Origin: Anaeropeptidivorans aminofermentans
Lineage (GTDB): Bacteria; Bacillota; Clostridia; Lachnospirales; UBA5962
Reading direction: 5' to 3'
Assembly: GCF_940670685.1 (NCBI RefSeq)
Contig: NZ_OW711693.1
Span: forward strand, 1,054,001 to 1,118,000
DNA length: 64,000 bases
The first letter of the stretch is position 1. The number at the start of each line of letters is the position of its first letter. Shown here piece after piece: positions 1,138-18,551 of this stretch. The position numbers and the translations under genes were made by a program. Under the pieces are notes generated by a model. The model was not told where the DNA came from. It did not search any database and saw only the letters and a list, made by a program, of their open reading frames with translations.

Positions 1138-2795
1138 TGTATGAAATGGAAGGATTGAAGAGATTAAAAGATTCCCTTTATTATTCCCCAAAGACGCGCT
1201 TGATGCTGGACTGGAGCGGAATGGGGCTCACAGACAGCTATTTTGATGAGATGAGAGAGAAACTGGCCGGAGCTTTTGAAGCCATGGACCGGCTGGAAAA
1301 GGGCGCCATAGCAAACCCAAGTGAAGAGCGGATGGTCGGCCACTATTGGCTCCGCAATGCGGAAATGGCACCTGATGAGAAGGTGGCGGAAAGCATAAGG
1401 GATAACCTCTCACATATACAAAGCTTTACGAAAAAGATACATGGCGGAGAGCTGCAAAATGAGTCTGGCAGCCGATTCAAAAATATCATCGTGGCAGGGA
1501 TGGGCGGCAGCAGTCTGGGAACGGCTTTTGTGTATCATACGCTGCCGTGCCGAAGTCGGAAAATGAAGCTTTACTTCATGGATAACACGGACCCGGATGG
1601 TATGGATAATATCTTCGATGCGGTTGCGGCCGAGCTGGATGCCACCATGATTCTCATCATTTCCAAGAGTGGGAAAACGGTGGAGACAAGAAACTGCATG
1701 GAAGAAGCAAGGGTTTTCTATGAACGTCACGGCCTTTGCTTCTCAAAACATGCCGTTAGCATAAGCGAAAGAGACAACCTGCTGGACGCTATGGCTGCGG
1801 AGGAGAATTGGCTTGACCGCTTCTTCCTATGGGACTGGGTAGGGGGCAGAACCTCGGTGATGTCTGCCGTGGGACTTTTGCCCCTGTCTCTTGTAGGGGT
1901 TGATACCATGGCGCTGCTGCAGGGAGCCGCGGAATGCGACCAACTGACCCGAAGCCGCAGTCCCCGGAACAATCCGGCGGCGCTGATGGCCTTATCCTGG
2001 TATAGGTGCAGCGGCGGCAGGGGAAAAGAGACAATGGTTGTTCTGCCCTATAAGGATTCTCTCGAGCTTTTTGCAAAGCATCTGCAACAGCTTGTGATGG
2101 AATCTTTGGGCAAGGAGCATGATCTCTCCGGCCATGTGGTACATCAAGGTCTTACTGTTATCGGGAATAAGGGTTCTTCCGACCAGCATTCTTACGTACA
2201 GCAGCTTGTGGCCGGAGAAGACAATTATTTTGTGACCTTCGTTGAAGTTCTCCGGGATAGGGAAGGAGAATCCCCTGTTTTGAGCGATGGAAGCACCAGC
2301 GGTGCGTTCCTGCAGGCGTTCCTGCTGGGTACAAAAAAGGCCCTGGAAGCGCAGGGGCACAGAACCATGACCATCACCATACCAGCAGTAACGCCTTATT
2401 ATGTCGGAGCGCTGATTGCTCTTTTCGAAAGGGCCGTAGGATTTTACGCAAGCCTTATAAATGTAAATGCCTATGACCAGCCGGCGGTGGAGCAGGGTAA
2501 AAATGCAGCCAATGGACTCATTGCATTGAGAAATGCAGCCAGAAAATACCTTTCCGATAAAAGCGGTCAATTCATGACCGCCGAAGAAATCGCCGAGACT
2601 CTCAGTGCCAGAGCCGACGAGGTTTTTCGGCTGATGCTCCATCTTGCCGTCAATGACCCTCAGGTTATCATGCGGGAGGAAAAGCAGCTTTGGGAAAGCA
2701 CTTTTGCATTCAGAGAAGATAATTTAAGTTACATAGAAACCAGAGAGGGGGAAAGCCCATGGGGAACTTTAGAGCTTTACTCCAAGAATGGCTGA
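1137..2795 (+). CDS. pgi: glucose-6-phosphate isomerase (classical SIS-fold type)
   Basis: Interconverts glucose-6-P and fructose-6-P in the cytoplasm. About 552 residues. The N-terminal SIS phosphate-binding segment GMGGSSLGTAF lies near residue 120, followed by ISKSGKTVET and DWVGGRTSVMSAVG; a C-terminal lysine lies in QPAVEQGKNAANG. I start at ATG 1137 because AAGGAG sits 4 nt upstream and the ATG overlaps the malQ stop; a GTG at 1119 in the same frame has no ribosome site. The end overlaps the next gene by 37 nt. A second, non-homologous cupin-type phosphoglucose isomerase is encoded at 12207-13022. Confidence 0.93.
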   Translation: MYEMEGLKRLKDSLYYSPKTRLMLDWSGMGLTDSYFDEMREKLAGAFEAMDRLEKGAIANPSEERMVGHYWLRNAEMAPDEKVAESIRDNLSHIQSFTKKIHGGELQNESGSRFKNIIVAGMGGSSLGTAFVYHTLPCRSRKMKLYFMDNTDPDGMDNIFDAVAAELDATMILIISKSGKTVETRNCMEEARVFYERHGLCFSKHAVSISERDNLLDAMAAEENWLDRFFLWDWVGGRTSVMSAVGLLPLSLVGVDTMALLQGAAECDQLTRSRSPRNNPAALMALSWYRCSGGRGKETMVVLPYKDSLELFAKHLQQLVMESLGKEHDLSGHVVHQGLTVIGNKGSSDQHSYVQQLVAGEDNYFVTFVEVLRDREGESPVLSDGSTSGAFLQAFLLGTKKALEAQGHRTMTITIPAVTPYYVGALIALFERAVGFYASLINVNAYDQPAVEQGKNAANGLIALRNAARKYLSDKSGQFMTAEEIAETLSARADEVFRLMLHLAVNDPQVIMREEKQLWESTFAFREDNLSYIETREGESPWGTLELYSKNG

Positions 2796-4570
2796 ACCAG
2801 CCGCATTTGGACGAAGCGTTAAGAGAAGAACTTCTGGCCCTTACCGGTGAAAAGGAAATAGAGGACCGGTTTTACAGGGATTTGGAATTTGGCACCGGCG
2901 GTCTGCGGGGCCTTCTTGGACCAGGAACCAACCGGATGAATATCTACACGGTAAGGAGAACCAGCCAGGGATTTGCAGATTATATAAACGCCCATTACGG
3001 CAAGGGCAGCGAAGGCTATAAGGGTCGGAACCCCGCCATTGCCATCGCTTACGACAGCCGGAAAAATTCCCGGCTTTTTGCTCTGGAGGCAGCCTGCGTC
3101 TTTGCCGCCAACGAGATTAAAGCATATATTTATCCGGAGCTGATGCCGACGCCGGCTTTATCCTTTGCGGTTCGCCATTACGGCTGCGGCGGTGTAATGA
3201 TAACCGCCAGCCACAATCCGGCCCAGTATAACGGTTATAAGGTATACAATGAAGAAGGCTGCCAACTGACCTTGGAGGCTGCGGAAGAGGTTTTGAACTT
3301 CATCAATGAGATTCATATTTTTGAGGATGTAAAAACCATCAGCACGGACCTTGACTTGACCTTGGAAGAGCGGCTTGCTATGGCCTTGGCCCTTTCCGAT
3401 GATAGCGGCGTTCCGCTGATAGAGGTGATTCCTGATGCGGTGATACAGGCCTACATGGATGCTGTTTATGGGGAGCGAATGGGTGTGACGGGTTGTGACG
3501 CTCTTTCGGTGGTCTATACGCCGCTGAACGGTACCGGCTATAAGCCTGTTACCGCCATTCTCAAAAGAATCGGCGTAAAAAAGGTCGCTTTGGTAGAGGA
3601 ACAGCAATACCCCGATGAAACCTTCCGAACCTGCCCTTACCCGAATCCGGAAAAAATGGAGGCCTTAGCCCTGGGCCTCGGTCTGTGCAAAAGACTTGGT
3701 GAAGAAGGGGAGGCGCCGGATTTGCTGATTGCCACGGATCCGGACTGTGACCGGATAGGGGTTGCGGTTCGTCACTATAGAGAGGATTTTATGCGGCTTT
3801 CCGGCAATGAGATAGGTATTTTGCTGCTGGATTTTATTTGTCAGCGCAAGGCGCCTATGCCTGAAAACCCCCTTTTTATCAAGACCATTGTCTCAAGTTC
3901 CATGGCGGAGCCCGTGGCTAAGGCGTATGGGGTGGAGGTACAGAATGTCCTCACCGGATTTAAGTTTATCGGAGAGCAGATTGGTTTCATGGAAAAGGTT
4001 GGCATGGGAAAGCGCTTTATCTTCGGCTTTGAGGAAAGTTGCGGCTACCTGGCCGGCACCTACGTGCGGGATAAGGACGGCGTTGTAGCTGCCATGCTTC
4101 TCTGCGAAGCCGCAGCTTATTATAAGGCAATGGGTAAAACCCTGGTTGACAGATTGACGGAGCTCTATGACCAATACGGTTATTATATAAATGATTTGAT
4201 GGAGTTTGAATTCCCCGGTGCCGTGGGCATGCAAAAAATGACAGAACTTCTGGCGGCCTTGAGGGCAGAGGCCCCCTTAGAGATTGCAGGAAAAAAGGTG
4301 ATTCAGATTGCCGATTACCTCCTTTCCAAGAGGCGGATTGTTCCTGAGGAAAACGGCTGCGTATTATCCCCAGAGACTCTTCCCATTTCACTGCCAAAAT
4401 CCGACGTGCTGGAATATGTGCTGGAGGGGGATTCCAATGTCATCATCAGGCCCTCGGGAACAGAGCCCAAGCTGAAGGTATACCTTTCCGCAAAGGGAGA
4501 GACAAAGACGGCAGGCTTGGAAATAATCGAAGCCATCAAGAGGGATTTGGACGCTCTCTTGCGTCCATAG
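2759..4570 (+). CDS. pgcA: phosphoglucomutase / phosphomannomutase (alpha-D-phosphohexomutase)
   Basis: Interconverts glucose-1-P and glucose-6-P (possibly mannose phosphates), completing the operon with malQ and pgi. 603 residues, as expected for the large Firmicutes PgcA type. Four signature loops are visible: the phosphoserine loop TASHNPAQYNGYKV near residue 148, metal-binding DPDCDRIG near 329, sugar-binding GFEESCGY near 422 and phosphate-binding RPSGTEPK near 563. The start at 2759 has GAGGGGGAAA upstream and lies inside the end of pgi. Whether glucose or mannose is preferred cannot be told from the motifs. Confidence 0.94.
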   Translation: MGNFRALLQEWLNQPHLDEALREELLALTGEKEIEDRFYRDLEFGTGGLRGLLGPGTNRMNIYTVRRTSQGFADYINAHYGKGSEGYKGRNPAIAIAYDSRKNSRLFALEAACVFAANEIKAYIYPELMPTPALSFAVRHYGCGGVMITASHNPAQYNGYKVYNEEGCQLTLEAAEEVLNFINEIHIFEDVKTISTDLDLTLEERLAMALALSDDSGVPLIEVIPDAVIQAYMDAVYGERMGVTGCDALSVVYTPLNGTGYKPVTAILKRIGVKKVALVEEQQYPDETFRTCPYPNPEKMEALALGLGLCKRLGEEGEAPDLLIATDPDCDRIGVAVRHYREDFMRLSGNEIGILLLDFICQRKAPMPENPLFIKTIVSSSMAEPVAKAYGVEVQNVLTGFKFIGEQIGFMEKVGMGKRFIFGFEESCGYLAGTYVRDKDGVVAAMLLCEAAAYYKAMGKTLVDRLTELYDQYGYYINDLMEFEFPGAVGMQKMTELLAALRAEAPLEIAGKKVIQIADYLLSKRRIVPEENGCVLSPETLPISLPKSDVLEYVLEGDSNVIIRPSGTEPKLKVYLSAKGETKTAGLEIIEAIKRDLDALLRP

Positions 4571-5913: not shown

Positions 5914-6345
5914 TTTTGAAAATCATTATGGTAAAGCCTTATTTCAAATGGCCTTGAAACAAAATGAAGACCAAAACTTAAAAAGCAAATGGATGAGCTT
6001 TATAAATTGTACAAATCCAATGCAAACATCAATGAATTCTTAGATTCTATTAATGAGGGCCTTTTGGCCTCCTTTGACAAGGTATACAGCGGATTTATAA
6101 ATGAATATGACCAGGTTACCGCAACCTTACAATTAATATTGCCTCTGCCTTTCCTATTGAAGAAAATGAAGAATGCATGATTAAAAGTAAGCTTGAAGCC
6201 TTAACAGGTAAAAAAGTCGATCTTGTTTGCGAAGTAGACTCTTTATTGCTTGGCGGAATCATTATCAAATTTGATAAATATGAAATTGACGGCAGTTTAA
6301 AATCTAAGCTTAATGAAATTAAGAAAAGCATAATGCAGATTGTGA
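5906..6345 (+). pseudogene. atpH: ATP synthase F1 subunit delta fossil (atpH)
   Basis: Begins MNNFENHYGKALFQMALKQ at 5906 and shifts frame near 5985 to continue MDELYKLYKSNANINEFLDS. It shifts again near 6125, after which the diagnostic C-terminal region (KSKLEALTGKKVDLVCEVD, then LLGGIIIKFDKYEIDGSL) is read. In the last frame there is no stop before the atpA start, so the remnant runs in frame into atpA, an artefact of decay. Confidence 0.85.
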
Positions 6346-6353
6346 GGGGTGTT

Positions 6354-7864
6354 ATGAGTTTTGATATTGGTCAGCTAAGTAAAGATATTAAGGCAAGGCT
6401 GGAATTATCCGAATATGGTTCCAAAATTGAGAAAACAGGAACGGTAGTTAAAGTTAGCGACGGCATTGCCCAAATATATGGCCTTGAAAACTGCCTGATT
6501 TATGAGCTTATAGAATTTCAAGGCAAAGGTTTCGGCATGGCTATGAACCTTGAAAAAAATTCTGTGCTTGCGATATTGTTCTTCGGCGATTCAAGCCTTA
6601 AAGAAGGTGATAAGGCGTTAAGAACAAACAAAATCGTCTCCGTTCCTGTTGGCTATAATATGCTTGGCCGCGTAGTTAACGGCCTTGGCGCCTTTCTGGA
6701 CGGCGTAGGTGAAATAGAGGCAGATGAATTTTATCAAATTGAATGTTCCGCTAGGGGCATAATAGAAAGAAAAAGTGTAAGCGTATCTCTCGAAACAGGC
6801 ATAAAATCCATTGATTCAATGATACCGATAGCGTGAGGTGATTATCGAAGACAGGCAAACTGGAAAAACAAGCATAGCTCTTGATACAATTATAAATCAA
6901 AAAGGTAAGGATATTTATTGTGTATATGTTGTAATCGGCCAAAAGCAAAAATCAACCGTAGAGATAGTTGATGTTCTTCAGCAAAGCGGAGCGATGGAAT
7001 ATACCATTGTGGTATTCGCCCCCCGCCTCTGATTCGGCATTAATGCAATATATTGCTCCCTTTGCATCCTGCAGCATGGCTGAATTTTATATGGAACAGG
7101 TGAAAAATTCACTTATTGTTTATGATAATTTAACCCAGCACGCCATTGCATATAGAACCTTATCTTTACCGTTAAATCGTCCGCCAGGATTCGAAGCCTA
7201 TCCCGGAGATGTTTTTTATCTTCACAGCAGGCTTCTGGAAAGAGCCGCATGCCTTTCAGAAGAAGTTGCCAGCGGAACGCTTACCGCTCTTCCTATTATA
7301 GAAACACAGGCCGGAAATATAAGCGCATATACTCCCGCAAATATTATTTCCATTACAGATGGACAGATATTCTTGGAAAGCGAGCTTTTTAATTCTGGAA
7401 TACTGCCGGCTATAAATCCTGGTATTTCCGTAAGCCGCGTAGGAGGTTCGGCCCAGACAAAGGCAATGAAGAAGGTTTCAGGCAGCTTGAAAATTCTTTA
7501 TAGTCAATATCTTGAATTAAGAGATTTTGTAGAATTCGGAAGCGACCTTGACGAAAATACAAGAAAGCGTCTTGCCGTAGGCGAACGTATTGTGGAAATA
7601 TTAAAGTAAAATGAGCATAATCCTTTTGCCTTAGAAAATCAAATTACGATATTCTTTGCCTTATCAAACGGCTTCTTAAAAGATATACCGCTGGAATCTA
7701 TTCAATTATACGAGGCGGAGCTTTATGAGTACATGAAAATTAAAGCTCCTCAATTAATATTAGACCTTAAAAAAGACGCTTTTTCAGAGGATACCGCCGA
7801 GGCGTTAAAAAATTATATTCAGAAGTTTACTGAAGAATTTTTAAAAAGCATGAAAGAGGTGTAA
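6354..7864 (+). pseudogene. atpA: ATP synthase F1 subunit alpha fossil (atpA)
   Basis: Nearly the full length of the alpha subunit can be read across frames: MSFDIGQLSKDIKARLELSE at 6354, KTGTVVKVSDGIAQIYGLEN, GYNMLGRVVNGLG, and then a stop at 6837 where the RGQREL motif should be. The Walker A region reads EDRQTGKT instead of GDRQTGKT. A further shift near 7020 leads to [40 protein letters not shown] and [19 protein letters not shown]. Another stop at 7606-7608 is followed by the C-terminal helices down to 7864. At least three disruptions plus a damaged nucleotide loop; nonfunctional. Confidence 0.92.
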
Positions 7865-7867
7865 GCC

Positions 7868-8010
7868 ATGTCAAGTACATCTCTTACAGCAATAAAACGA
7901 AGAATGAGAGGTATCAACAGCCTTAGCAAAGCTACAAAAGCCATGGAGCTTACCGCAAGCGCACAAATATCGGCAGCGATAGACAAAACAAAGTGTTCTG
8001 AAGAATTATA
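7868..8010 (+). pseudogene. atpG: ATP synthase F1 subunit gamma, N-terminal stub (atpG)
   Basis: MSSTSLTAIKRRMRGINSLS, then KATKAMELTASAQISAA, is the start of the gamma subunit (expected about 280 residues). Similarity ends near 8010, where the sequence passes directly into a potassium-transporter fragment. The rest of atpG and all of atpD/atpC are missing, so a deletion removed the 3' half of the operon. Confidence 0.8.
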
Positions 8011-8285
8011 CTGGAATACAATAACCCAAACACCATCGGCAAATTTTCTTTAGGCCATAAAATCATTGCCGCGCTGTTTCAATCTGTTACCTTAAGAACA
8101 GCCGGATTCAGCTCAATGAATCGGCATAGATTGAATGAATCCTCAAAATTTATATCCTCAATTCTTATGATGATAGGAGGCTCTCCCGGAAGCATAGCCG
8201 GGGGGAATTAAAACAGTTACGATTGCGGTTATATTTTGCAGTATATGGTCAATCATTAAGAGCAGCAATGGAATACAGGTTATCT
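8011..8285 (+). pseudogene. TrkH/KtrB-type potassium uptake fragment fused to the atpG stub
   Basis: Read from CTG 8011: LEYNNPNTIGKFSLGHKIIA, then ALFQSVTLRTAGFSSM, then SKFISSILMMIGGSPGSIAG. After a one-base shift in a G run near 8206 it continues GIKTVTIAVIFCSIWSIIKS. SVTxRTAGF and GGSPGSxAGGIKTxT are the selectivity-filter and pore motifs of the TrkH/KtrB family. Only the last quarter is left. Together with the atpG stub it marks the endpoints of a deletion. Confidence 0.8.
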
Positions 8286-8592: not shown

Positions 8593-9255
8593 TTAGAGAC
8601 ATCGTAAATCTAATTCCTTGCCATGAGTATTAAATACTTGTAATGCAGAAATAGTCAAATTTTTATTAACCATTTTTTCAAACACATCATAGGCAATAGT
8701 GGCTGTCAGCGCACCGCTTTCCATGGCCTTAAGCACCTGATGAGCGTTTTTGAAACTGGCCGCCATCACTTTACAGGGTAATTGTTGCATCTTAAATATC
8801 TGATACATCTGATGAATCTGTTCAAAAGGATCAATATTATTATCTAGCATTCTGTTAACATAGGGCGCTACATAATTACAGCCAGCCATCCCTGCCAGAA
8901 TTCCTTGTTCCGCCGAATAAATTACGGTGCCTAAAATTGGCATTTCCGGATGCGTACTTCTAATTTGACGAACAGTTTCAAGCCCTGCCATATCTATCGG
9001 AACTTTTATGCCGATATTTCTGCCTTCCAATTTAGAAAGTATAGTTTTAAAATCTTCCATCCGCTGTTCAACTGTATTGCCTAAAAGCTGTATCAGTACC
9101 AGCCCAATTTCAGTATCCAGTATATCATTCAGCGCTTGGAACCGATTTTTCTTTTCTCTTAGCAGTATTGTGGGATTCGTTGTGACGCCCTTAAATAATC
9201 CTATTTTTTTCGCCATTTTAATCTCATCAACATCTGCCGTATCAATAAACAGCAT
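8593..9255 (-). CDS. transaldolase / fructose-6-phosphate aldolase family protein (TalC/FSA type)
   Basis: Small (220 aa) class I aldolase of the FSA/TalC group. The likely reaction is cleavage or formation of fructose-6-P (FSA) or dihydroxyacetone transfer (transaldolase); the two cannot be separated by eye. GVTTNPTILLRE lies near residue 23. The Schiff-base Lys84 is in GIKVPI, and SAEQGILAGMAGCNYVAPYV follows, ending in the family signature YVNR. AAGGGGGAG lies ahead of the ATG at 9255. It is the last gene of the minus-strand PTS/HPS-PHI cluster, suggesting it feeds triose-P or pentose-P out of the pathway. Confidence 0.88.
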   Translation of the reverse strand: MLFIDTADVDEIKMAKKIGLFKGVTTNPTILLREKKNRFQALNDILDTEIGLVLIQLLGNTVEQRMEDFKTILSKLEGRNIGIKVPIDMAGLETVRQIRSTHPEMPILGTVIYSAEQGILAGMAGCNYVAPYVNRMLDNNIDPFEQIHQMYQIFKMQQLPCKVMAASFKNAHQVLKAMESGALTATIAYDVFEKMVNKNLTISALQVFNTHGKELDLRCL

Positions 9256-9301
9256 ATCACTCCCCCTTACTTTCTATAGAATTTAAACGGTAAATAAACA
9301 C

Positions 9302-9994
9302 TTATATTTCTGTACGGCCAATGATATCAAAAATATCCTGGGTATTCTCTGCGTAACTTCTGTTTTGCCTGAAAATAGTTTTTGTCCCCAATACCAGTAT
9401 ATCAGCACCCTTATCCACTAAGAGGCGTGTTTCTTCCATACCAATACTGCCATCTGCTTCAATTGAAATATGTGCTCCGTTGTGCTTGTTTAAATAAGAC
9501 CTTGTCCGGGCCACCTTATCCAATATGTGCGTATTTAACGGTGCTGCACTTTCAAAGCCTTCCCGTATTAACAGATTGACCATGTGAATATAAGGCAATG
9601 CCTCTTCAATTACATAAATGGGGGTACCAATATTAATGGCAAGGCCTGGTAAGCCGCCTGCATTTTGAATTTTCTTAAGCAGTTTTGCCATGTTGTATCC
9701 GCATACCTCAGCCTGTATAACCACATAGCTTCCTGCACAATGGGGCAGCAATGCTTCAAAGAGCCTTTCAGGATAAGATACCAGAAGGTGGATATCCAAT
9801 TGCATTGATGTTATCTTTTTTATCATTGGTATCATATCTGTCGGCAGCATAATTTGGCTGCCATACACATCATAGGTAGTATCCATTAAATCAAAATGAA
9901 TTAATTCGATACCCACTTCCTCAAGTTTTCTTATTTCTCTCTCCATATTCATTAAATCCCCACGGGCTATGGAGGGTGCTAATCGAATTTTCAT
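9302..9994 (-). CDS. ribulose-phosphate 3-epimerase family protein, divergent paralog A
   Basis: TIM-barrel protein of the RPE family, about 230 aa. It starts KIRLAPSIARGDLMNMEREI and keeps HFDLMD (His and two Asp), DIHLLV (His) and the late Asp in IEADGS, all metal or acid-base positions in RPE. The DGxFVPN loop is replaced by DTTYDVYGS, and the NPGFGGQ phosphate loop by LIREGFESAAP, so the substrate may not be ribulose-5-P. I use ATG 9994; an in-frame ATG at 10006 with AGGAA one base upstream is less likely but possible. It lies between its paralog and the aldolase gene. Confidence 0.75.
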   Translation of the reverse strand: MKIRLAPSIARGDLMNMEREIRKLEEVGIELIHFDLMDTTYDVYGSQIMLPTDMIPMIKKITSMQLDIHLLVSYPERLFEALLPHCAGSYVVIQAEVCGYNMAKLLKKIQNAGGLPGLAINIGTPIYVIEEALPYIHMVNLLIREGFESAAPLNTHILDKVARTRSYLNKHNGAHISIEADGSIGMEETRLLVDKGADILVLGTKTIFRQNRSYAENTQDIFDIIGRTEI

Positions 9995-10043
9995 TTTCTC
10001 ACCCATTTCCTGTTATCATGATTTTAATTTTGCCAAACACTAC

Positions 10044-10715
10044 TTAAGATAGATATGCCCGAAAAGCATTGCACTGTTCTACAACAGAGTTCTCCTTGTT
10101 ATAAATGCTTTTCGTTCCCAGAACAAATATATTGGCACCCATTTCCATGGTTTTCTTTGCCACTTCAAACGATACGCCTCCATCTACTGAAATAGGTACG
10201 TGTTCACATCCGGCATCATCCAGCATTTTACGGGCGCGGCTAATCTTGTGCAGTAATTGAGCGTCTAAGTCAATTCTCGGTCCAGTCCCGCCGTTACCCA
10301 GTATAAGCAAAAGAAAATCGAGGGAAGGCAATACTTCCTCTATGGCGGATAGTGATGTGGCATAGTTTAAAGCGGCGCCTGCCTTTGCCCCGGCGTCCTT
10401 TGCCTTTTTTATAAGCCCCATTAGCTCAATTGTGGTTTCCGTATGGAAAGATATATAGTTGCCCTTGCAATAAGGGAGCAAATAATCTATAATACGTTGC
10501 GGTTTATCGATCATTACATGGATATCAACTGGGATATTCGTTATTTTATTAATGGCTGATATTAACATTGGCGGAAGCATTGTTGTTGTTGTGAAAGTAG
10601 TATCCATTACATCAAAATGTATAAGTTCCACTTTTGCCTCTTCCAACAGCCTGATTTCTCTCTCAAGGTTTAATAAATCTGCGCACATAATTGACGGCGC
10701 GAGCATTGGTTTCAC
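10044..10715 (-). CDS. rpe: ribulose-phosphate 3-epimerase family protein, divergent paralog B
   Basis: 223 aa TIM barrel closer to genuine RPE than paralog A: MLAPSIMCADLLNLEREI at the start, His33/Asp35/Asp38 in HFDVMD, His66 in DIHVMI and Asp178 in SVDGGV, the full set of metal and catalytic residues. Still odd: DGxFVPN reads DTTFTTTTMLPP, LNPGTP reads LNYATS, and VNPGFGGQ reads ILGNGGTG. Family members epimerise D-ribulose-5-P/D-xylulose-5-P or D-allulose-6-P/D-fructose-6-P; either fits the neighbourhood. Starts with GTG 10715, eight bases after AAAGGAGG. A palindromic repeat lies between it and the PHI gene. Confidence 0.8.
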   Translation of the reverse strand: MKPMLAPSIMCADLLNLEREIRLLEEAKVELIHFDVMDTTFTTTTMLPPMLISAINKITNIPVDIHVMIDKPQRIIDYLLPYCKGNYISFHTETTIELMGLIKKAKDAGAKAGAALNYATSLSAIEEVLPSLDFLLLILGNGGTGPRIDLDAQLLHKISRARKMLDDAGCEHVPISVDGGVSFEVAKKTMEMGANIFVLGTKSIYNKENSVVEQCNAFRAYLS

Positions 10716-10759
10716 AATCGTATCCTCCTTTATATATATTTATTTGGCTTGAAAACAGT

Positions 10760-10852
10760 CTTTCTATATTTAAGTTTAATAAGTTTTCCTACTATTTATA
10801 GTAAATAGACTTGGCCCTATTTTAAGTTTATTTACTATGTCACAAAAACATG
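10760..10852. repeat. palindromic intergenic element (TAGTAAATA..TATTTACTA type)
   Basis: Contains TATAGTAAATAGACTTGG and, inverted, AAGTTTATTTACTATG, preceded by TTTAAGTTTAATAAGTTTTC. The same arrangement recurs at 30545-30615 and 47550-47612, so this is a dispersed element inserted inside the minus-strand operon, between the PHI and epimerase genes. Confidence 0.6.
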
Positions 10853-10869
10853 GGTTGGCCGCCTCTCCA

Positions 10870-11424
10870 TCATTCCAAATTGGCATGCCGTATGGAGATA
10901 AATTGGTCTATATTCTGATTTTCTCTTACCACGCCCTTTTGAAGGGCCAAGTCAAGAAATAAGCTGTCACAAATTAACAGCATGCATTGCTCAAATGATG
11001 ATCCTTTTGGCTGAATGCTGTCTACGAGGCCAACAGGAATTTCAACAGTACAATCTGACAGTCTGCCAATGGTTGAATCAGGATTAAACGTAATAATTGC
11101 TATATCAGCACCAAGTTTTTTGGCTTTTTGCGCCATAATCGTAAGGGAACCTGTTTCACCCGAACCGGAGCCGAAAATGATTAAATCTCCTTTTTCAGCC
11201 GCCGGAGTGGCTATTTCACCGCATACATAAGCATGAAGCCCCAAATGCATCAGCCGCATACCAAAGCTTCTAATCATTAAGGCGGAGCGGCCGGCACCGG
11301 CAACATATACTTTATTTGCCTTTAATAACATTTCTGCCAGTTTTTCCAAAGACTCAGGTTCAACCTTTTCTATGATATCGCTCAATTCCTTCATTATTTT
11401 TTCGGCTATTTGTATGGCGTCCAT
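10870..11424 (-). CDS. hxlB: 6-phospho-3-hexuloisomerase (PHI), SIS domain
   Basis: Isomerises D-arabino-3-hexulose-6-P to fructose-6-P, the second RuMP-pathway step. 184 aa, a single SIS domain. VYVAGAGRSALMIRSFGMRL near residue 39, followed by MHLGLHAYVCGE, is the PHI-type sugar-phosphate site; GSGSGETGSLT follows, and PKGSSFEQ near 139 carries the acidic residue used as general base in PHI. AGGAGGT is 8 nt before ATG 11424. The HPS gene lies immediately upstream on the same strand, a pairing that strongly supports PHI over other SIS proteins. Confidence 0.92.
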   Translation of the reverse strand: MDAIQIAEKIMKELSDIIEKVEPESLEKLAEMLLKANKVYVAGAGRSALMIRSFGMRLMHLGLHAYVCGEIATPAAEKGDLIIFGSGSGETGSLTIMAQKAKKLGADIAIITFNPDSTIGRLSDCTVEIPVGLVDSIQPKGSSFEQCMLLICDSLFLDLALQKGVVRENQNIDQFISIRHANLE

Positions 11425-11543
11425 TATTTTTTTACCTCCTATACCGCAATTTAAACATTACAATAAAGCCTGCTTTGTCATTTCTTTTCGCATGAATTTA
11501 TAAAGTAAGCATCATATTTTGAATATTCTATTGTCTTCAAAAA

Positions 11544-12173
11544 TTACGCTTTGATAATTTCCTGGAATTTAATTACGGTTTCTCTGGGATTAGAAGAGCC
11601 AGTAATCTTGCTGCCCGCAATGACCACATCAGGGCCAATTTTTTTAATATTCGGCAATGTATCCATTCCAATACCGCCTGCTACAGACACTTTTGTATTT
11701 TTAACCACCTCAACAGCAATGCGCAGTTCGTCAATCGGATTATTTCCTTCGCCCTGAATATCGCTAGCGGTATGTACACCGATGTAATCTGCACCCCACC
11801 CATCCACTTCAATTACCCTGTTCTTAAAATTCGGATGGTTAATCATATCAATTAATACTTTTTTTCCATATTTGCGGGCTGTATCAATAGCACCTTTGAT
11901 AGTAGCGTCAGGTGCGGTGGCAAGCACTGTAACAATATCCGCTCCAGCTTTAATGGCATATTCTGCTTCAAGCATTCCGCCGTCCATAATTTTTGTATCC
12001 GAAAGAATTGTTAATTCAGGATATTTTTTCCTTAGCGCTTGAACGGGTTTCTGCCCTTCAAGAATAATCATGGGCGTACCAATTTCAACAATATCCACCA
12101 AATCATGTACTTTGCTAACCAATTCCAGCATTTCCTCTGTATTGCATAAATCTATGGCTAATTGTAATTGCAT
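11544..12173 (-). CDS. hxlA: 3-hexulose-6-phosphate synthase (HPS), OMP-decarboxylase superfamily
   Basis: Aldol condensation of ribulose-5-P with formaldehyde, or the reverse. 209 aa. Metal and catalytic residues are visible: Asp8 in LAIDL, Glu30 in VEIGTP, and the Asp59-Lys61-Asp64 motif in DTKIMDGG. IDMINHP, YIGVHTASDIQGEG and SVAGGIGMDTLP favour HPS over the homologous 3-keto-L-gulonate-6-P decarboxylase (UlaD), although UlaD is what an ascorbate-type PTS usually travels with. AGGAGG precedes ATG 12173. The adjacent PHI gene supports HPS; UlaD-like activity remains the main alternative. Confidence 0.87.
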   Translation of the reverse strand: MQLQLAIDLCNTEEMLELVSKVHDLVDIVEIGTPMIILEGQKPVQALRKKYPELTILSDTKIMDGGMLEAEYAIKAGADIVTVLATAPDATIKGAIDTARKYGKKVLIDMINHPNFKNRVIEVDGWGADYIGVHTASDIQGEGNNPIDELRIAVEVVKNTKVSVAGGIGMDTLPNIKKIGPDVVIAGSKITGSSNPRETVIKFQEIIKA

Positions 12174-12206
12174 TACATCAAATCCTCCTAATGGTTATTT
12201 AATTCA

Positions 12207-13022
12207 TTATTTAAGCAGTAAAGCATCTATTTGCAATTCATACTTTTCTGGGTTTGACAGATAATCAAAACGTTCCGGTTCATTTATAAAGGCTGTATAT
12301 AGAGGGGTGTCAAATGAGATACCCATATCCTTATTCTCCTGTGCCTTTGCAATTTTTAGCTGGGGCAGATTTCTGTATCGGGCATTGGGTACGAATACTA
12401 CATGCCCATTTATTTTTAATACATAATATCCAAATCCATGTTTTTTCTGGATAGGTTCATAAAACAGTGGGCTAGGGGCGGCTAAATTGCCGAAAGCCAT
12501 TGGACCTTCTCCAATATTGATAGCACAATGGGCATAGTAAGGCGGTACTATTAACTTTTCCCCAGGCTCTAAAAAAACCGCCAACATTTCATCTACTGCC
12601 AATTCTTCATCTATGTGAAAGTTGGTGGATTTTTGCAACAGAAAAACCGCTTTCCCCGTTAATATTTCATAAGCTTCCGGATAAGGCAACGTATGACCCT
12701 CTGTAATGCCGTGGTAATGTCCTGAATTTTTACGGCATTCTCCTCCAGTGGCGTCATTTGTAACCGGCATTAGCACCGTAATGCCGTTAGCATAGTCCCT
12801 GCTTTTAAAAAGCGTCTTATGTTCCTCTTTATAGATACCTGGGCAAAAGCTGTAACTTAATTCATCCTTTCCCAAGGCGGCATCAGGTTTATATAAAAGG
12901 CCAATGACCTGTTGCAGATATTTTGAGCTTCTGTCTTCCGGTTCAATGCCTTCTCCAAATTTAAGTCTATAGTCTGCCCCTTCAAGTGAAACTGGCAATC
13001 CAAATGTTTTTGTTAAGTCCAT
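12207..13022 (-). CDS. cupin-type glucose-6-phosphate isomerase
   Basis: Metal-dependent phosphoglucose isomerase of the cupin family first known from archaea, non-homologous to the classical enzyme at 1137-2795. About 271 aa. The cupin metal motif is readable: SGHYHGITEGHTLPYPEAYE (His, His and Glu) followed by PPYYAHCAINIG (His), with the family-typical LTGKAVFLLQ between. Start chosen at ATG 13022, five bases after GGAGG; a TTG at 13034 reads through that ribosome site. In this operon it would move fructose-6-P made by PHI to glucose-6-P, or act on a related hexose-6-P. Confidence 0.85.
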   Translation of the reverse strand: MDLTKTFGLPVSLEGADYRLKFGEGIEPEDRSSKYLQQVIGLLYKPDAALGKDELSYSFCPGIYKEEHKTLFKSRDYANGITVLMPVTNDATGGECRKNSGHYHGITEGHTLPYPEAYEILTGKAVFLLQKSTNFHIDEELAVDEMLAVFLEPGEKLIVPPYYAHCAINIGEGPMAFGNLAAPSPLFYEPIQKKHGFGYYVLKINGHVVFVPNARYRNLPQLKIAKAQENKDMGISFDTPLYTAFINEPERFDYLSNPEKYELQIDALLLK

Positions 13023-13040
13023 AATTGCCTCCAATTAAAA

Positions 13041-13475
13041 TTAAATGAATAAATTATACATATCTCGGCATGTTTTAGCGGCATAAACCTGCTCCATGCG
13101 TTCTTGACTGCTCAATACTTCACTTAAACTTCCCAAAGCATCCAGATGACTGGAAGAATCTGTTGCTGCAAGGCCAATTAACAGCTTTGTCGGTATTGTC
13201 TTTCCTTGAAACAGAACAGGTTTTTTAAGGAGTGTTATTGACATTTTCATATGACAAACCCCATCTTCAGGGCGTGCGTGGAGCAATGCCACCTCAGGCA
13301 ACAACATGTAATAGGCCCCGTGCTGTTCTGTAAGACGTATAACGGTATCAATGTAGTGCTGTGTAATACTGCCTGAGTCCAACAGCGGTTTTAAACTTAC
13401 ATAGACGCCCTCTTTCCAGTCATTAACGGATTCTATGATTTGAATGTTTTCAATTTGCAACAGTTCACTTATCAT
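13041..13475 (-). CDS. ulaC: PTS EIIA component, mannitol/fructose/ascorbate class (UlaC-like)
   Basis: Phosphocarrier accepting phosphate from HPr on His66 (in VALLHARPEDGV) and passing it to the EIIB encoded at 13643-13927. About 144 aa, one PTS EIIA type-2 domain. ATG 13475 has GGAG nine bases upstream; longer in-frame starts to 13535 lack a ribosome site. Its place with EIIB and UlaA-like EIIC makes a complete permease. Confidence 0.88.
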   Translation of the reverse strand: MISELLQIENIQIIESVNDWKEGVYVSLKPLLDSGSITQHYIDTVIRLTEQHGAYYMLLPEVALLHARPEDGVCHMKMSITLLKKPVLFQGKTIPTKLLIGLAATDSSSHLDALGSLSEVLSSQERMEQVYAAKTCRDMYNLFI

Positions 13476-13642
13476 TAAAGCCACTCCAATATTGATTTGA
13501 TGTCGGTCCATTCGTAAGTGAACCGAAATAAACATAAATTAAATACTAATTTATTGCAGTCATGGAACAGGCCTAAAACCGATATCATGGATACCGGCTT
13601 TAGGCCATTATCCAATAAATATTTAAATTGTGCTAATATAAA

Positions 13643-13927
13643 CTAATTTTTTTGTTCAAAATATGCTTTAAGTTTACTTCTAATCTCATCTATAGACATC
13701 AGATTTTCAAGGGGAATCGTTTCACCATATGCCTTACAGGATTCCTCCATATCCGACGAGCAAACAAATAAATCCGCAATACCAGGGGATACATCATTAA
13801 TTCCGCTGTGGGTAACCTCAATATCTCCAAGACCCAATTGCTCCAATACCTTTTTTACATTCATTTCAACCATAAAAGATGAACCAAGGCCAGACATACA
13901 GCAACATAGTATTTTTTTAACAGACAT
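13643..13927 (-). CDS. ulaB: PTS EIIB component, lactose/ascorbate class (UlaB-like)
   Basis: Small (94 aa) phosphocarrier. The phosphorylation loop CCCMSGLGSSF lies at residues 8-18, with Cys10 the likely phosphocysteine. ATG 13927 follows AGGAGGATTAAT closely. It sits 10 bp after the EIIC gene. An upstream in-frame extension to 14011 would overlap EIIC and lacks a ribosome site, so it was not used. Confidence 0.92.
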   Translation of the reverse strand: MSVKKILCCCMSGLGSSFMVEMNVKKVLEQLGLGDIEVTHSGINDVSPGIADLFVCSSDMEESCKAYGETIPLENLMSIDEIRSKLKAYFEQKN

Positions 13928-13937
13928 ATTAATCCTC

Positions 13938-15308
13938 CTAAACTGTTTGGGAAGGTTTCCTAAATCTTGCCGTAATAAGCGGCAACAGAAACAGAACAAT
14001 AATAACGCCAAATATTACCTGACCATTTATGTACCTGGACAGCAAGCCAAAGAAAATACCTACAACGCCGGTATCGCCGCCGCCAAATGTTGTGTTTTCC
14101 ATCATAACATTCCCTATGGAAATCAGGAAAGACGGAATAAACTGCGCAATTATCATTGCGATAAATGAACCGATTACAACACCTCGCACACCGCCTTCTT
14201 TGTTGCATAAAGCTCCAAATGTCGCGCCAAAAAAGAATGAGGTAAACAACGTAGGAATAATAACAGGTAAATCTACCCCCGAACCAACTAATGCCAGCTG
14301 GATAAAGAAGGCCACAAGTCCCGCAACAGTTGAAACCAGAAACCCAAGAAGCACAGAATTGGGCTGGTATGGATACAAAACAGGAATATCAAGACAAGCT
14401 CTTGCATCTGGAATCAGCTTATCGGCGATGCCTTTAAAAGCCGGCAATAAGTCTGCCAAAACCATACGGACACCAGCCTGAATTACATAAACCCCAGCCG
14501 CGAAATTCATGGAACTGATAATAATAGAGATAAACCAATTGCTTTCACCATAAACTTCTTTGATAACTTCCGGCATCGCTATATTGACAACAAGGCAAAC
14601 TACAAAATAAACAATTAACATTGCCAGCGATAAGGAAACCGTTAAATCCCGAAGGAAGTTTAAACTTTTTGGAATATTTAAATCTTCTGCTGATTTTTCC
14701 TTATTGCCCACTACTTTTGCTATGGCGGCGGCAACCCAGTAAAAAACTGTACCGGTATGGGCTACACCAACATCATTATTGCCTATAACTTTTGCAACAG
14801 ATTTTTGAATCATACTTGGCGCAACCGTCATATATAAACCTACGAACATACCGCCGCCGACAACGACCTGCCAGTAAGGCAATCCAGCCCAGTTTAAAGC
14901 GATTGCCATAACCGTTGAAATCCACATGGCCTCATGGCCAGTTAAATAAATATTCTTGAAATTTGAGAATCGAGCTAAAAATAAATTCAATATCCAACCA
15001 ATCGCAAGTATTGCCGCCATCTGTGTGCCATACTGAGTTACAGATACCGCAAACATTACTTCATTAATCGGTACAATGCCTGTAACATTAAAAGCAGCAG
15101 CCAGTAAATCATTCAGCGGCGTCAAGCCGCCTATGACAACACCTGCACCTGCACCGATTAGCAAAAAACCTACAATTGTTTTTACAGTGCCCTTAATAAT
15201 GTCAGATACCGGTTTTTTCTGAATCGCCAGTCCAATAAAAGCCATTAACCCTACCATCAAAGAGCCTTGCTGAAGGAATTGTTCCAAAAAACCCAAAATC
15301 ATGTTCAT
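13938..15308 (-). CDS. ulaA: PTS EIIC component of the ascorbate (UlaA/SgaT) family
   Basis: Membrane permease of 456 aa with about ten or more hydrophobic segments. Family hallmarks are IIKGTVKTIVGFLLIGAGAG near residue 38, YLTGHEAMW near 121 and VIQAGVRMVLADLLPAFKGI near 275, all matching the UlaA fold. The substrate is not necessarily ascorbate: the catabolic genes downstream (HPS, PHI, epimerases, cupin isomerase) differ from the ula set, so another sugar or sugar acid is plausible. A ribosome site GAAAGGGGAA precedes ATG 15308. Confidence 0.92.
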   Translation of the reverse strand: MNMILGFLEQFLQQGSLMVGLMAFIGLAIQKKPVSDIIKGTVKTIVGFLLIGAGAGVVIGGLTPLNDLLAAAFNVTGIVPINEVMFAVSVTQYGTQMAAILAIGWILNLFLARFSNFKNIYLTGHEAMWISTVMAIALNWAGLPYWQVVVGGGMFVGLYMTVAPSMIQKSVAKVIGNNDVGVAHTGTVFYWVAAAIAKVVGNKEKSAEDLNIPKSLNFLRDLTVSLSLAMLIVYFVVCLVVNIAMPEVIKEVYGESNWFISIIISSMNFAAGVYVIQAGVRMVLADLLPAFKGIADKLIPDARACLDIPVLYPYQPNSVLLGFLVSTVAGLVAFFIQLALVGSGVDLPVIIPTLFTSFFFGATFGALCNKEGGVRGVVIGSFIAMIIAQFIPSFLISIGNVMMENTTFGGGDTGVVGIFFGLLSRYINGQVIFGVIIVLFLLPLITARFRKPSQTV

Positions 15309-15499
15309 TCAAAATTCCCCTTTCTCAAACAAATGATAAACATATACGCCTTCTCCTTTTAGCTTTTGACATATATGACGGTTACAACAATATCTTACCA
15401 TCTACCTATGAGGAATAATACATAATTATCTGCTATTATTTGCACATATTTCGTGAAATAAATTGTACTTATTGGAAATTATAATTATATATATTTGTT
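15309..15499 (-). other. gap between regulator and PTS genes, AT-rich
   Basis: 190 bp between the PRD regulator and EIIC, strongly AT-rich. I see no clear terminator or RAT/hairpin pair typical of BglG antitermination. The operon promoter may lie here, as expected if the PRD protein is a DNA-binding activator (LicR/MtlR type) rather than an RNA-binding antiterminator. Confidence 0.4.
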
Positions 15500-17551
15500 T
15501 TAATTGGGGAATTTATGATTTTTAAAAAATTCTCTGACTATATCAACGGCATTAAATGAATTCGAGCGTAACAGCTTATCCAATATATGAGGATTTTCAT
15601 ACAGATGCACTATCTCCCTCAGTAAATAAAGATGGTCATTTTGATTTGGCGTAGCCAATACAAAGAGAAACTGTATATTGAATCTTCCAAAATCAAGGCC
15701 ATTAGGAAATATTGTGCAGGTTAACGCAAGTCTCCGTACCCCATCCGCTGGATTGGCATGGGCAATGGCCATCCTCTCATTAACAACGATATAAGGTCCA
15801 TGCTGCTCCACCAAATTAATCATTTTTGTCACATAGCCATTCGTTATGTACTTTTCATCTACTAATATACTGGAAGCATTGTATATAGCCTTCCGCCAGT
15901 CCATACCTGCCGTTTCATCGAAACGAATACCGAAGGTCTCGAACATTTCCACAATGCCTGCTACTTTATTTTCTTCAATATGTAAAAGTGACTCTCCCAT
16001 ATTCATCATTTCATAGAGTTCATTGCGTATTTTAACCAAAGTTTCCTGATTCACATGTTTTCCAATAACTGATAATATCTTATTGTACTGTCTCTGATTG
16101 ACTCTATACGCAAAAGGAGAGGTCATCAGGAAAGAAGCAATTTGGGACCTGTCTTCCGGTGTTAATATGGGATTTACCAGTATAACCGGATGGCGGCTCT
16201 CAAATTTTACTGTTGCAATTACAAAGTCAACATTATCATAATTATCAATTTGTTCTATCGGTACTGCCGCCAGAATTCGTATTTGCTCAAAATAAGTATC
16301 AATCTCATTTTGCAAAAGTGCCGATGTGGTTTTTCCGTTGGGGCAGACAATCAAAGCATTAAACCGTTTTTGCTGTAATACTCCTTTATTCAGGGAGGAA
16401 CCGAAATGCATACTCAGATAAGCGATTTCCTCTTCAAAAAGCGGGAATGGGAATTGTTCTTGATGATATTTACAACAATAAGCCGTAATTTTAAATAAAT
16501 CCTGATAGTTCTCTTTAATCTCTTCTGCCAGCGGATTTATGAAGGATGCGGAATAAGAATAAATATATAAAGACAGTTTTAAATGCAGATAAATGGAATT
16601 TACCAAATTTTCCTTTTCATTGAATTGTATACAAGCAATTCTCTCAAAAGTGTTTACCAGCTCCCTGGACAAGGTCAATGTTTTTATATCCTGCTGTTTG
16701 CTAATAAGTTCCGTATCCTGAAGAAAATCCCTGTTTTCCCGAAAACCTAACAAATGTATCGTCAAATACAACATTTGATGCTCTTTTAATTCTGTAAAAT
16801 TGTCTTTTATCAGCTTGAACTCTTTAGAAGCATACAGGGTTTTTAAATCCATTACATTAAAATCATAGCTATCTTCCTCATTATGGACCAACACATATAT
16901 CAGGCAGGCCATAGCTATTTGACGCTCTTCAGTAATTATAATTCCAAGCTGCTTTAATACTATCTTAAGCCTATTCCATATATGCTCAAGTATATCTATT
17001 TTGTATAGGGGCAAGTTTCTGTAATTAATGCACTTAAGCAGCAATGAAGTATAATGCAATAACACTGACCGCTTTCGAAATTCCTCTCCCTGAACAGAAT
17101 AACCTGCCTTTTTGCTGAATAAAAAGCTAAGTCCGGATTTTTCCAATACCTGTTTAACCTCAGCTAAATCATTTATAATTGTATTCCGCGACATTCCGAG
17201 CAAATCGGTTAATGTAGTTAAATAAATAGGCTCTCGGGGATAAATAACACAGCATATAAGATAGTAATTGCGTACTTTAGAATCCAAAACAACGTTTACA
17301 GGCCCCATTTTCCCCAGTAATTTTTCTTTCTGAGCTTCTGGAATAAAATAGCCGTTTTTATCGGTTTGTAATGGTCTGAGTTTCATTGATAATAGATATT
17401 CATCAATATTATTTATTGCATAGTAAACAGAACGACGGGAAATTTTAAGTTGCTTCTCCATTTTGGATACAGAAGCGTGGCTTTGGTTTGTAAATAGAAA
17501 ATCCATTACTTGACGGGCATTTTTTGATAGTTTAACTTTATTTTGAGGCAT
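15500..17551 (-). CDS. PRD-domain transcriptional activator with EIIB- and EIIA-like domains (MtlR/LicR type)
   Basis: 683 aa multidomain PTS-controlled regulator. In order: N-terminal winged helix (SVSKMEKQLKISRRSVYYAI) and a second HTH-like segment (GMSRNTIINDLAEVK), two PRD domains (about 170-390), an EIIB-like domain with Cys in IVCPNGKTT near residue 402, and a C-terminal EIIA-like domain with His in MAIAHANPADGV near 598. Phosphorylation by HPr and the cognate EII proteins would tune activity to substrate import. ATG 17551 has GAAGGG about 9 nt upstream; the in-frame ATG at 17560 touches that site. Its gene heads the PTS/HPS-PHI operon. Confidence 0.9.
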   Translation of the reverse strand: MPQNKVKLSKNARQVMDFLFTNQSHASVSKMEKQLKISRRSVYYAINNIDEYLLSMKLRPLQTDKNGYFIPEAQKEKLLGKMGPVNVVLDSKVRNYYLICCVIYPREPIYLTTLTDLLGMSRNTIINDLAEVKQVLEKSGLSFLFSKKAGYSVQGEEFRKRSVLLHYTSLLLKCINYRNLPLYKIDILEHIWNRLKIVLKQLGIIITEERQIAMACLIYVLVHNEEDSYDFNVMDLKTLYASKEFKLIKDNFTELKEHQMLYLTIHLLGFRENRDFLQDTELISKQQDIKTLTLSRELVNTFERIACIQFNEKENLVNSIYLHLKLSLYIYSYSASFINPLAEEIKENYQDLFKITAYCCKYHQEQFPFPLFEEEIAYLSMHFGSSLNKGVLQQKRFNALIVCPNGKTTSALLQNEIDTYFEQIRILAAVPIEQIDNYDNVDFVIATVKFESRHPVILVNPILTPEDRSQIASFLMTSPFAYRVNQRQYNKILSVIGKHVNQETLVKIRNELYEMMNMGESLLHIEENKVAGIVEMFETFGIRFDETAGMDWRKAIYNASSILVDEKYITNGYVTKMINLVEQHGPYIVVNERMAIAHANPADGVRRLALTCTIFPNGLDFGRFNIQFLFVLATPNQNDHLYLLREIVHLYENPHILDKLLRSNSFNAVDIVREFFKNHKFPN

Positions 17552-17649
17552 GTAAACCATCCCTTCTTACATAGCTTTATCAGATACAATCCAGCATGAA
17601 AAAAGACGGGTCTTACAGAAGAAACAGACTAAAAATGTTATTTAAAATA

Positions 17650-17678
17650 AGTATAGCATTACAATAATCCGAAGTCAA
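17650..17678 (-). promoter_or_regulatory. sigma-A-type promoter for the PRD regulator gene
   Basis: On the minus strand TTGACT (17673-17678) is followed after exactly 17 bases by TATACT (17650-17655). It lies about 100 bp upstream of ATG 17551 and diverges from the DeoR promoter. Confidence 0.65.
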
Positions 17679-17726
17679 AGCAAAGGCAGTTATTCTATCG
17701 GTTTATCGCAACTTATACCAATCACT

Positions 17727-17755
17727 TTGACGTTTTGGCTTTCATATGTTATTTT
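17727..17755 (+). promoter_or_regulatory. sigma-A-type promoter for the deoR-family gene
   Basis: TTGACG (17727-17732), 17-base spacer, TATTTT (17750-17755), 32 bp before ATG 17787. The two -35 boxes of the divergent genes are about 50 bp apart, so regulators could act on both. Confidence 0.55.
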
Positions 17756-17786
17756 AGTATTAAGAGTAAATTAAGGAAGGTATTGT

Positions 17787-18551
17787 ATGAAATCAAAATC
17801 CATAACCGCTGAAAGAAGAAATAAACTTGCACAAATTATTGTGAGTGAAGGCAGTGCTAAAGTAAGTGATATTGCAAAACACTTTCATGTCACAACAGAA
17901 ACCATACGGAAAGATCTGATATTTTTAGAAGAGCAAGGTATTGTCAAAAAAAGTCATGGCGGTGCCGTATCTGCCAGCTCTTTTTTAGAGCGCCCGATAT
18001 CAATTAAAGAAAGTGAAAATATAGAGCCGAAAGCACAGATTGCAATCAAGGCTTTGGAATTGATACCAGATAACGCAATAATTATGATGGATGGCGGCAG
18101 TACCACATTTCATATAGCAAAACTGCTGACTTTAAAAGAAAATATTACTGTTATCACAAATTCATTGATTATTGCCCAGGTACTGGCAAACACATCGAAT
18201 AATATTTTATGCCTTGGCGGTAAATTGCGTGGTTCCAGCAGGGCGGTTACAGGCGCCTGGGCTACAGATATTATAAAGACGCTTACGGTTGACCTGGCCT
18301 TTATCGGCACCGATAGCCTTGATGATAAAGGCCCCAGCACACTTTCGTACGAGGAAGCCCAGGTTAAACAGGCCATGCTCGAACATAGCAATAAAACCAT
18401 TGTCGTATCCGACAGCAGTAAGCTTAAACGACAGGGGTTATTCCATTGCGGCAAATGGTCTGACATTGACTATCTTATTACCGATAGTGGAATTAATCTA
18501 TCAGAGATTGATTTTATAACTAGTAAAACTACCGTTTTGATAGGAGAATAA
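17787..18551 (+). CDS. DeoR-family transcriptional repressor
   Basis: 254 aa, typical DeoR length. The N-terminal HTH reads SAKVSDIAKHFHVTTETIRK followed by DLIFLEEQG, and the C-terminal sugar-phosphate sensor domain shows MMDGGSTTFHIAKLL, VITNSLIIAQ and IVVSDSSKL. AAGGAAGG precedes ATG 17787. Members repress sugar catabolic operons and are released by a phosphorylated intermediate; the divergent position suggests control of the PTS/HPS-PHI cluster next door. The operator is not identified. Confidence 0.9.
   Translation: MKSKSITAERRNKLAQIIVSEGSAKVSDIAKHFHVTTETIRKDLIFLEEQGIVKKSHGGAVSASSFLERPISIKESENIEPKAQIAIKALELIPDNAIIMMDGGSTTFHIAKLLTLKENITVITNSLIIAQVLANTSNNILCLGGKLRGSSRAVTGAWATDIIKTLTVDLAFIGTDSLDDKGPSTLSYEEAQVKQAMLEHSNKTIVVSDSSKLKRQGLFHCGKWSDIDYLITDSGINLSEIDFITSKTTVLIGE

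Follow-up and report, generated by a model that had tools for sequence, protein, structure and literature searches.

A 64,000-nucleotide stretch of Anaeropeptidivorans aminofermentans DNA (NZ_OW711693.1; the whole stretch is called the window here, and coordinates are window positions) contains ten minus-strand genes running from 17560 down to 8593, with a divergent DeoR-family regulator gene beside them. The genes were placed by their open reading frames, and families were assigned by Pfam and NCBIfam profile searches with curated equivalog cut-offs. The cluster combines a sugar phosphotransferase system (PTS) with a cupin-type phosphoglucose isomerase (cPGI), a hexulose-6-phosphate synthase (HPS), a 6-phospho-3-hexuloisomerase (PHI), two RPE-fold proteins that we call RPE1 and RPE2, and a fructose-6-phosphate aldolase-type (FSA) protein:

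17787..18551, plus strand: divergent DeoR-family regulator (PF00455, PF08220)
15500..17560, minus strand: PRD-domain transcriptional regulator with a C-terminal EIIA-2 domain (helix-turn-helix (HTH), Mga HTH, PRD, EIIA; PF00874, PF00359, PF05043)
13938..15308, minus strand: PTS EIIC of the Ula/ascorbate (EIIC-GAT) family (PF03611, 359 bits; NF006919, 435 bits, cut-off 380)
13643..13927, minus strand: PTS EIIB, lactose/cellobiose-type IIB (PF02302; 60% identity to the EIIB of relative L043)
13041..13535, minus strand: PTS EIIA, EIIA-2 family (PF00359; 26% identity to UlaC)
12207..13034, minus strand: long cupin-type phosphoglucose isomerase family protein, cPGI, 275 residues (PF06560, 98 bits; motif RKNSGHYH, N-type)
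11544..12173, minus strand: HPS family protein (TIGR03128, 257 bits, cut-off 200)
10870..11424, minus strand: PHI, HxlB (TIGR03127, 196 bits, cut-off 160)
10044..10715, minus strand: RPE1, RPE-fold epimerase (PF00834; below the Rpe and AlsE cut-offs)
9302..10006, minus strand: RPE2, RPE-fold epimerase placed in the clade of RPE1 by tree and residues (PF00834, 107 bits)
8593..9255, minus strand: FSA/TalC-type protein (PF00923; 32% identity to E. coli FsaA)

This inventory upholds an earlier sequence-only reading, which had listed ten contiguous minus-strand genes of these families with a divergent DeoR gene, except that the start of EIIB had to be corrected: the long EIIB frame, with its TTG start at 14011, is over-long and overlaps EIIC, and the start is therefore likely the ATG at 13927. 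HPS, PHI and EIIC score above curated equivalog cut-offs, which for EIIC confirms the Ula family, and EIIB and EIIA are assigned by Pfam family only. RPE1, RPE2 and FSA score below their cut-offs and count as family members of uncertain substrate. Along the row from the PRD regulator to FSA, the intergenic gaps are 191, 10, 107, 6, 33, 119, 154, 37 and 46 bases, and scan counts of terminator-like and promoter-like sites were not above those in shuffled sequences. Because the gaps are only 6-191 bases and terminator-like sites do not exceed chance, the ten genes are likely co-transcribed as one operon. An Rfam search returned one tRNA and no other element.

The core of the cluster, cPGI, HPS and PHI (hereafter the trio), is conserved in other genomes, and the import module beside it is interchangeable. 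The search profile was built from the window cPGI aligned with two Salmonella homologues found by tblastn, and GTDB species genomes were scanned with cPGI alone; since the query was the isomerase alone, linkage to HPS and PHI was not built into the search, although the pattern step favoured this type of isomerase. The scan yielded 31 loci from Bacillota, Pseudomonadota, Chloroflexota, Actinomycetota and Candidatus Cryosericota, with HPS adjacent in 29/31 and both HPS and PHI present in 27/31 (one locus, L049, is cut by a contig end). In Candidatus Cryosericum hinesii (L043), the order PRD-EIIC-EIIB-EIIA-cPGI-HPS-PHI-RPE-RPE is that of the window, with 45-63% protein identity for the eight genes besides the regulator and 23% for the regulator. 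An intact trio is also carried by 132 of 5426 complete E. coli genomes (2.4%). We are highly confident that the module is genuine, conserved and linked to transporters, and it appears to be undescribed: a search of the open-access literature turned up no account of a trio pathway, which leaves room for an earlier description elsewhere. The sequence-only reading had proposed looking for neighbourhoods with a Ula-type EIIC, HPS, PHI and cupin isomerase, and the trio does recur across phyla, E. coli and Salmonella included, but it is the trio and not the Ula PTS that makes up the core.

Indeed, the transporter changes from locus to locus. The Ula PTS stands beside the trio in the window and in L043, and a Glc-type PTS does so in L060 and L068 and, together with SgrR, in the Enterobacteriaceae (L063, L066, L067, L069, a Salmonella plasmid and E. 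coli). Genes for an ATP-binding cassette (ABC) importer of the RbsABC/AlsBAC type are found in L044, L045, L046, L048, L049, L053, L057, L059 and L062, and in L044, L048, L057, L059 and L062 this importer comes with a ROK kinase. The regulators at trio loci are of sugar type (PRD, DeoR, SgrR, RpiR), and most loci have their own sugar importer. Because import modules are swapped in this way, we infer that a sugar (hexose) 6-phosphate is the common point of entry. Individual loci carry further genes: in E. coli L076, a divergent glucitol-type PTS with a Gfo/Idh/MocA dehydrogenase (L076:13239-16132) adjoins the trio and is possibly a second linked sugar route, and a Gfo/Idh-like gene is also present at the trio in Citrobacter L067.

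What kind of isomerase is the cPGI? Its AlphaFold model has a pLDDT of 95 and finds Pyrococcus furiosus PGI (1x82) as its best PDB match, and the metal ligands and catalytic Glu (H106, H108, E120, H169) are invariant in a 26-row alignment. In a tree of 72 cupin PGIs, the HPS-linked proteins form one clade (support 99/99) that is separate from the short archaeal-like forms, from the common unlinked long form and from the cPGI of locus L072; L064 falls inside the HPS-linked clade, yet has neither HPS nor PHI. The window's own subclade (9 rows, support 100/100), to which L043, L044 and L045 belong, has N in the motif K[N/T]SGHYH (N-type), and the rest of the clade has T (T-type). A phosphate-contact position, T85 in Pyrococcus PGI, is N in the window's cPGI clade. 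A wider cPGI search of the window's phylum gave matches in 79/398 sampled genomes; at the 29 loci retrieved from it besides the window's own, the short flanks (~1.5 kb or less) contained neither HPS nor PHI, and the cPGIs there belong to a different long clade, 27-34% identical, so that possession of any long cPGI is not diagnostic. Short cPGIs of the class (L005-L011) likewise had no HPS/PHI linkage within ~1.5 kb or less. The A. aminofermentans genome has two classical PGIs, one of them at window 1119-2795, and for this reason the cPGI is probably not required for glucose 6-phosphate; a Salmonella cupin PGI is reportedly active on glucose/fructose 6-phosphate.

HPS is the most conserved partner of the cPGI and the one whose part is hardest to account for. 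The pair HPS and PHI is known chiefly for formaldehyde fixation, and annotation pipelines name each copy accordingly. In an alignment with UlaD of E. coli, D112 and A169 are present in the window HPS and in all 29 relatives, as in the HPS encoded by plasmid hxlA; the UlaD active site reads E112/R139/T169 against D112/S139/A169 in the window protein, which scores 95 bits with the UlaD model (cut-off 294). Its active-site residues match those of the plasmid hxlA genes except at position 139 and at phosphate-site position 192, and position 139 is variable (the compared hxlA genes from plasmids have Y, trio loci S/T/V/F/L/Y) and was not used as substrate evidence. The best PDB match, 3f4w, is a putative hexulose 6 phosphate synthase. 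In a sugar pathway, HPS could drain hexulose 6-phosphate to ribulose 5-phosphate and formaldehyde, could epimerise it by retro-aldol/aldol chemistry, or could fix formaldehyde.

The two RPE-fold proteins had been called divergent, and rightly so, as both pass Pfam and both miss the curated Rpe and AlsE cut-offs; RPE1, for example, scores 120 bits against AlsE (cut-off 271). RPE1, RPE2 and their relatives form a clade apart from Rpe, AlsE and SgcE (support 99/98), and on this phylogeny they make up a new RPE-like epimerase family. RPE1 matches the RPE fold (AlphaFold model, TM 0.90) and keeps the catalytic residues H33/D35/H66/D178, and the four metal/acid-base residues are kept in RPE2 too. 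The substrate loop of RPE, NPGFGGQ, is replaced by GNGGTGP in RPE1 and by IREGFES in RPE2, which points to a different substrate. RPE1-clade genes lie beside the trio in 9/9 N-type loci and in 0 T-type loci with HPS; the Fisher value for this association is 4e-7, but the loci share ancestry, and the value should not be read as if they were independent. The FSA-type protein retains the FsaA-type VAPYVNR motif, but reaches only 151 bits with TIGR00875 against an equivalog cut-off of 246; a dihydroxyacetone (DHA) kinase that could use its product is present in the genome.

We propose, with a probability of roughly 40%, that the cluster forms an operon, tied to its own transporter, for the breakdown of a rare aldohexose, D-allose or a close D-ribo relative being the likeliest substrate; that the route serves a rare aldohexose of some kind we hold with moderate confidence. 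Everything past the family assignments is inference. The Ula-type PTS would import the sugar and yield its 6-phosphate, which the cPGI, whose family is established, would turn from an aldose into a 2-ketose 6-phosphate, e.g. allose 6-phosphate into allulose 6-phosphate. Carbon 3 could then be corrected by RPE1/RPE2 in a metal-type reaction and/or by PHI via a 3-ketose, giving fructose 6-phosphate. By their families, HPS and PHI link fructose 6-phosphate with ribulose 5-phosphate and formaldehyde, hexulose 6-phosphate being the intermediate, in a direction that may serve as a carbon drain to pentose phosphate or as epimerisation by retro-aldol/aldol. FSA, for its part, may cleave fructose 6-phosphate to dihydroxyacetone and glyceraldehyde 3-phosphate. 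The sequence-only reading had imagined the imported substrate's phosphate being funnelled to fructose 6-phosphate; a hexose or hexulose phosphate is still the best reading, and its allulose 6-phosphate option fits the allose-type transporter and kinase of relatives, but no positive evidence has appeared for its pentulose option. More generally, and more tentatively, the trio could be an undescribed phylum-crossing module that walks the carbonyl of an aldohexose 6-phosphate from C1 to C2 (cupin PGI) and on to C3 (PHI), so that either the new RPE-like family or HPS, through retro-aldol/aldol chemistry, could correct a stereocentre, or one carbon could be released; we put this at appreciably less than an even chance.

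Why D-allose? An allose-like substrate is the leading candidate, at somewhat under even odds, and the hints come from the genes of relatives and not from the window's own, which offer none; the relatives' genes hint at allose or allulose phosphates. The sugar-binding proteins of L044 and L045 are 43% identical to AlsB, score 302 and 321 bits with the D-allose model, just below the cut-off of 335, and share K9, W16, W164, N190, D215 and Q235 (RbsB numbering) with AlsB; the L044 protein has the D-allose-binding protein 1gub as its top PDB match, and the L044 ROK kinase lies above the allose kinase cut-off (258 vs 253). Psicose 3-epimerase homologues occur in L059 and L062, the L059 copy scoring 365 bits (cut-off 300), and DeoC-like genes lie beside the trio in L047, L052, L070 and L073. 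DeoC can make allose 6-phosphate in vitro (PMC8879981). The window DeoR regulator finds its nearest relative among the loci in the DeoR of L072 (41% identity), where a cPGI outside the HPS-linked clade adjoins a hexokinase and a true AlsE orthologue. That cluster (L072:7612-11526) consists of a mannose-6-phosphate-isomerase-like cupin, the hexokinase, the cupin PGI and the AlsE orthologue, with no HPS or PHI, and from its gene content it is likely a D-allose route with a cupin PGI in place of RpiB. As a separate observation, L047 encodes beside its DeoC gene and trio a 552-residue protein (L047:7446-9104) that begins at its N terminus like a P-loop kinase and also has a transaldolase-like region.

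Several points weigh against D-allose. No gene of the window is allose-specific, the link running through relatives, and allose alone would make HPS unnecessary, in spite of its being the partner most often kept. E. coli K-12 carries als genes, so a different sugar may be the substrate of the Glc-PTS trio found in other E. coli. The binding-protein scores of L044 and L045, as noted, are slightly under the curated cut-off; the binding proteins of L057, L059 and L062 show no greater similarity to AlsB than to RbsB, and L048, L050, L053, L057 and L062 encode ROK kinases that look glucokinase-like. At the remaining ABC loci the binding proteins are RbsB-like or unassigned and the kinases resemble glucokinases, so different subclades may handle different substrates. 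Compared with the E. coli als operon (AlsB/A/C importer, AlsK, RpiB, AlsE), the trio loci are alike in the AlsB-like proteins of L044/L045, in the AlsK-family kinase of L044 and in the logic of pairing an aldose/ketose isomerase with an RPE-fold epimerase, whereas the window differs in having a cupin PGI and not RpiB, epimerases outside the AlsE clade, additional HPS and PHI, and PTS import. By score and tree there is no AlsE orthologue in the window cluster, and als-type transporter and kinase genes are absent from the window, which has the PTS instead.

Other pathways could be built from the same enzymes. Taken at their canonical activities, the three add up to a ribulose monophosphate (RuMP) pathway run in reverse from glucose, in which glucose 6-phosphate, provided by the PTS or by ABC import and a kinase, would be converted by cPGI to fructose 6-phosphate and on, by PHI and HPS, to ribulose 5-phosphate and formaldehyde, supplying pentose without the oxidative pathway. 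Such a pentose supply is known for archaea; the archaeal system has the same three enzyme families, the cPGI fold matches P. furiosus PGI, T-type relatives have glucokinase-like ROK kinases and Glc-type PTSs, and glucose-6-phosphate dehydrogenase (G6PDH) is missing from the A. aminofermentans genome. The window operon differs from the archaeal case in being bacterial, in including an importer and in having a long cPGI with extra N- and C-terminal parts. Moreover, G6PDH is missing from 16/21 trio genomes as against 168/199 genomes of the window's phylum, which is no enrichment, and enterobacterial carriers do have G6PDH; the idea that HPS makes up for an absent oxidative pentose pathway is thus unsupported, and we set it aside. 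The two classical PGIs make a cupin PGI dispensable for this purpose, formaldehyde would be released, and the allose-type genes and new epimerases would be left unexplained; altogether we consider reverse RuMP flux from glucose unlikely. The opposite direction, in which HPS and PHI fix formaldehyde for detoxification or assimilation, cPGI recycles fructose 6-phosphate into glucose 6-phosphate and the transporter does no more than supply carbon, agrees with HPS and PHI being bona fide by curated cut-offs and, in the case of HPS, with an active site like that of the HxlR-regulated hxlAB systems. In Exiguobacterium, hxlAB adjoins zwf, pgi and gnd, which is a known dissimilatory cycle (PMC8879981). 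Yet five hxlAB plasmid loci have no sugar transporter within 4 kb, and at 3/5 a gene for a winged-helix regulator lies within or close to the pair, while the trio loci have their sugar-type regulators and, mostly, importers; the window ties HPS and PHI to sugar import, a cupin PGI and PRD and DeoR regulators, none of its cluster genes encodes HxlR or a methanol or formaldehyde dehydrogenase, and its genome has no G6PDH to close the cycle. A formaldehyde role is therefore decidedly improbable.

Could the sugar itself be branched? In the case of hamamelose (2-C-hydroxymethyl-ribose) or another branched or unusual hexose, the trio would rearrange the phosphate to hexulose 6-phosphate or split it to ribulose 5-phosphate and formaldehyde. 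This would account for an obligatory HPS, in that on chemical grounds a retro-aldol cleavage gives exactly these two products, and relatives do have ribose/allose-type importers; there is no direct evidence for it, and no report of hamamelose metabolism was found in the open-access literature, and we regard it as a long shot. A variant ascorbate (ula/sga) operon, in which the HPS would really be a 3-keto-L-gulonate-6-P decarboxylase and the RPE-fold proteins would replace UlaE and UlaF, has the Ula-type EIIC/B/A and an HPS-superfamily protein in its favour, with EIIC above the 'PTS ascorbate IIC' cut-off. But that EIIC shares only 31% identity with UlaA of E. coli, ascorbate breakdown has no use for PHI or cPGI, and the HPS has neither the active site of UlaD nor a score near its cut-off. 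No UlaG-type lactonase, UlaE or UlaF is encoded in the cluster, where every gene is of another family (the rest of the genome was not searched for them). The HPS active site and the gene content rule out an ascorbate operon, and even the variant form is barely credible; the earlier view of a PTS-linked sugar-phosphate pathway distinct from the ula set holds.

The Salmonella/E. coli arrangement SgrR-ptsG-like-cPGI-hxlB-hxlA, whose deposited annotation gives no pathway function, shares the core trio with the window (cPGI 35-38% and HPS ~42% identical), and differs in its Glc-type PTS (43% identical to PtsG), SgrR, T-type cPGI motif and lack of RPE1, RPE2 and FSA. Carriage of the trio by E. coli makes the pathway testable in tractable hosts. 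The tie of HPS and PHI to a cupin isomerase and a sugar importer across several phyla implies a sugar pathway that is absent from the databases searched, and the protein of structure 3f4w, an HPS by name, may accordingly have another role. If a carbonyl-walking module does exist, it would bring enzymes of the formaldehyde pathway into the rare-sugar catabolism of gut bacteria, E. coli and Salmonella.

A few features outside the cluster are also worth recording. Elsewhere in the same genome (C1:280792-284004), another EIIC-GAT gene lies near a separate short gene for a transketolase pyrimidine-binding domain (316-residue frame). Genes for a 4-alpha-glucanotransferase, the classical PGI of the window and a phosphoglucomutase run along the plus strand (52-4570), in a segment of ~51% G+C compared with 31-45% elsewhere in the window. 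Finally, F-type ATP synthase genes at 6177-8053 (plus strand) are broken: the delta end is fused in frame to the alpha start, the alpha nucleotide-binding domain is split across frames at ~6836 and 6968-7032, and a short gamma piece is left, the whole representing either a decayed operon or sequencing frameshifts.

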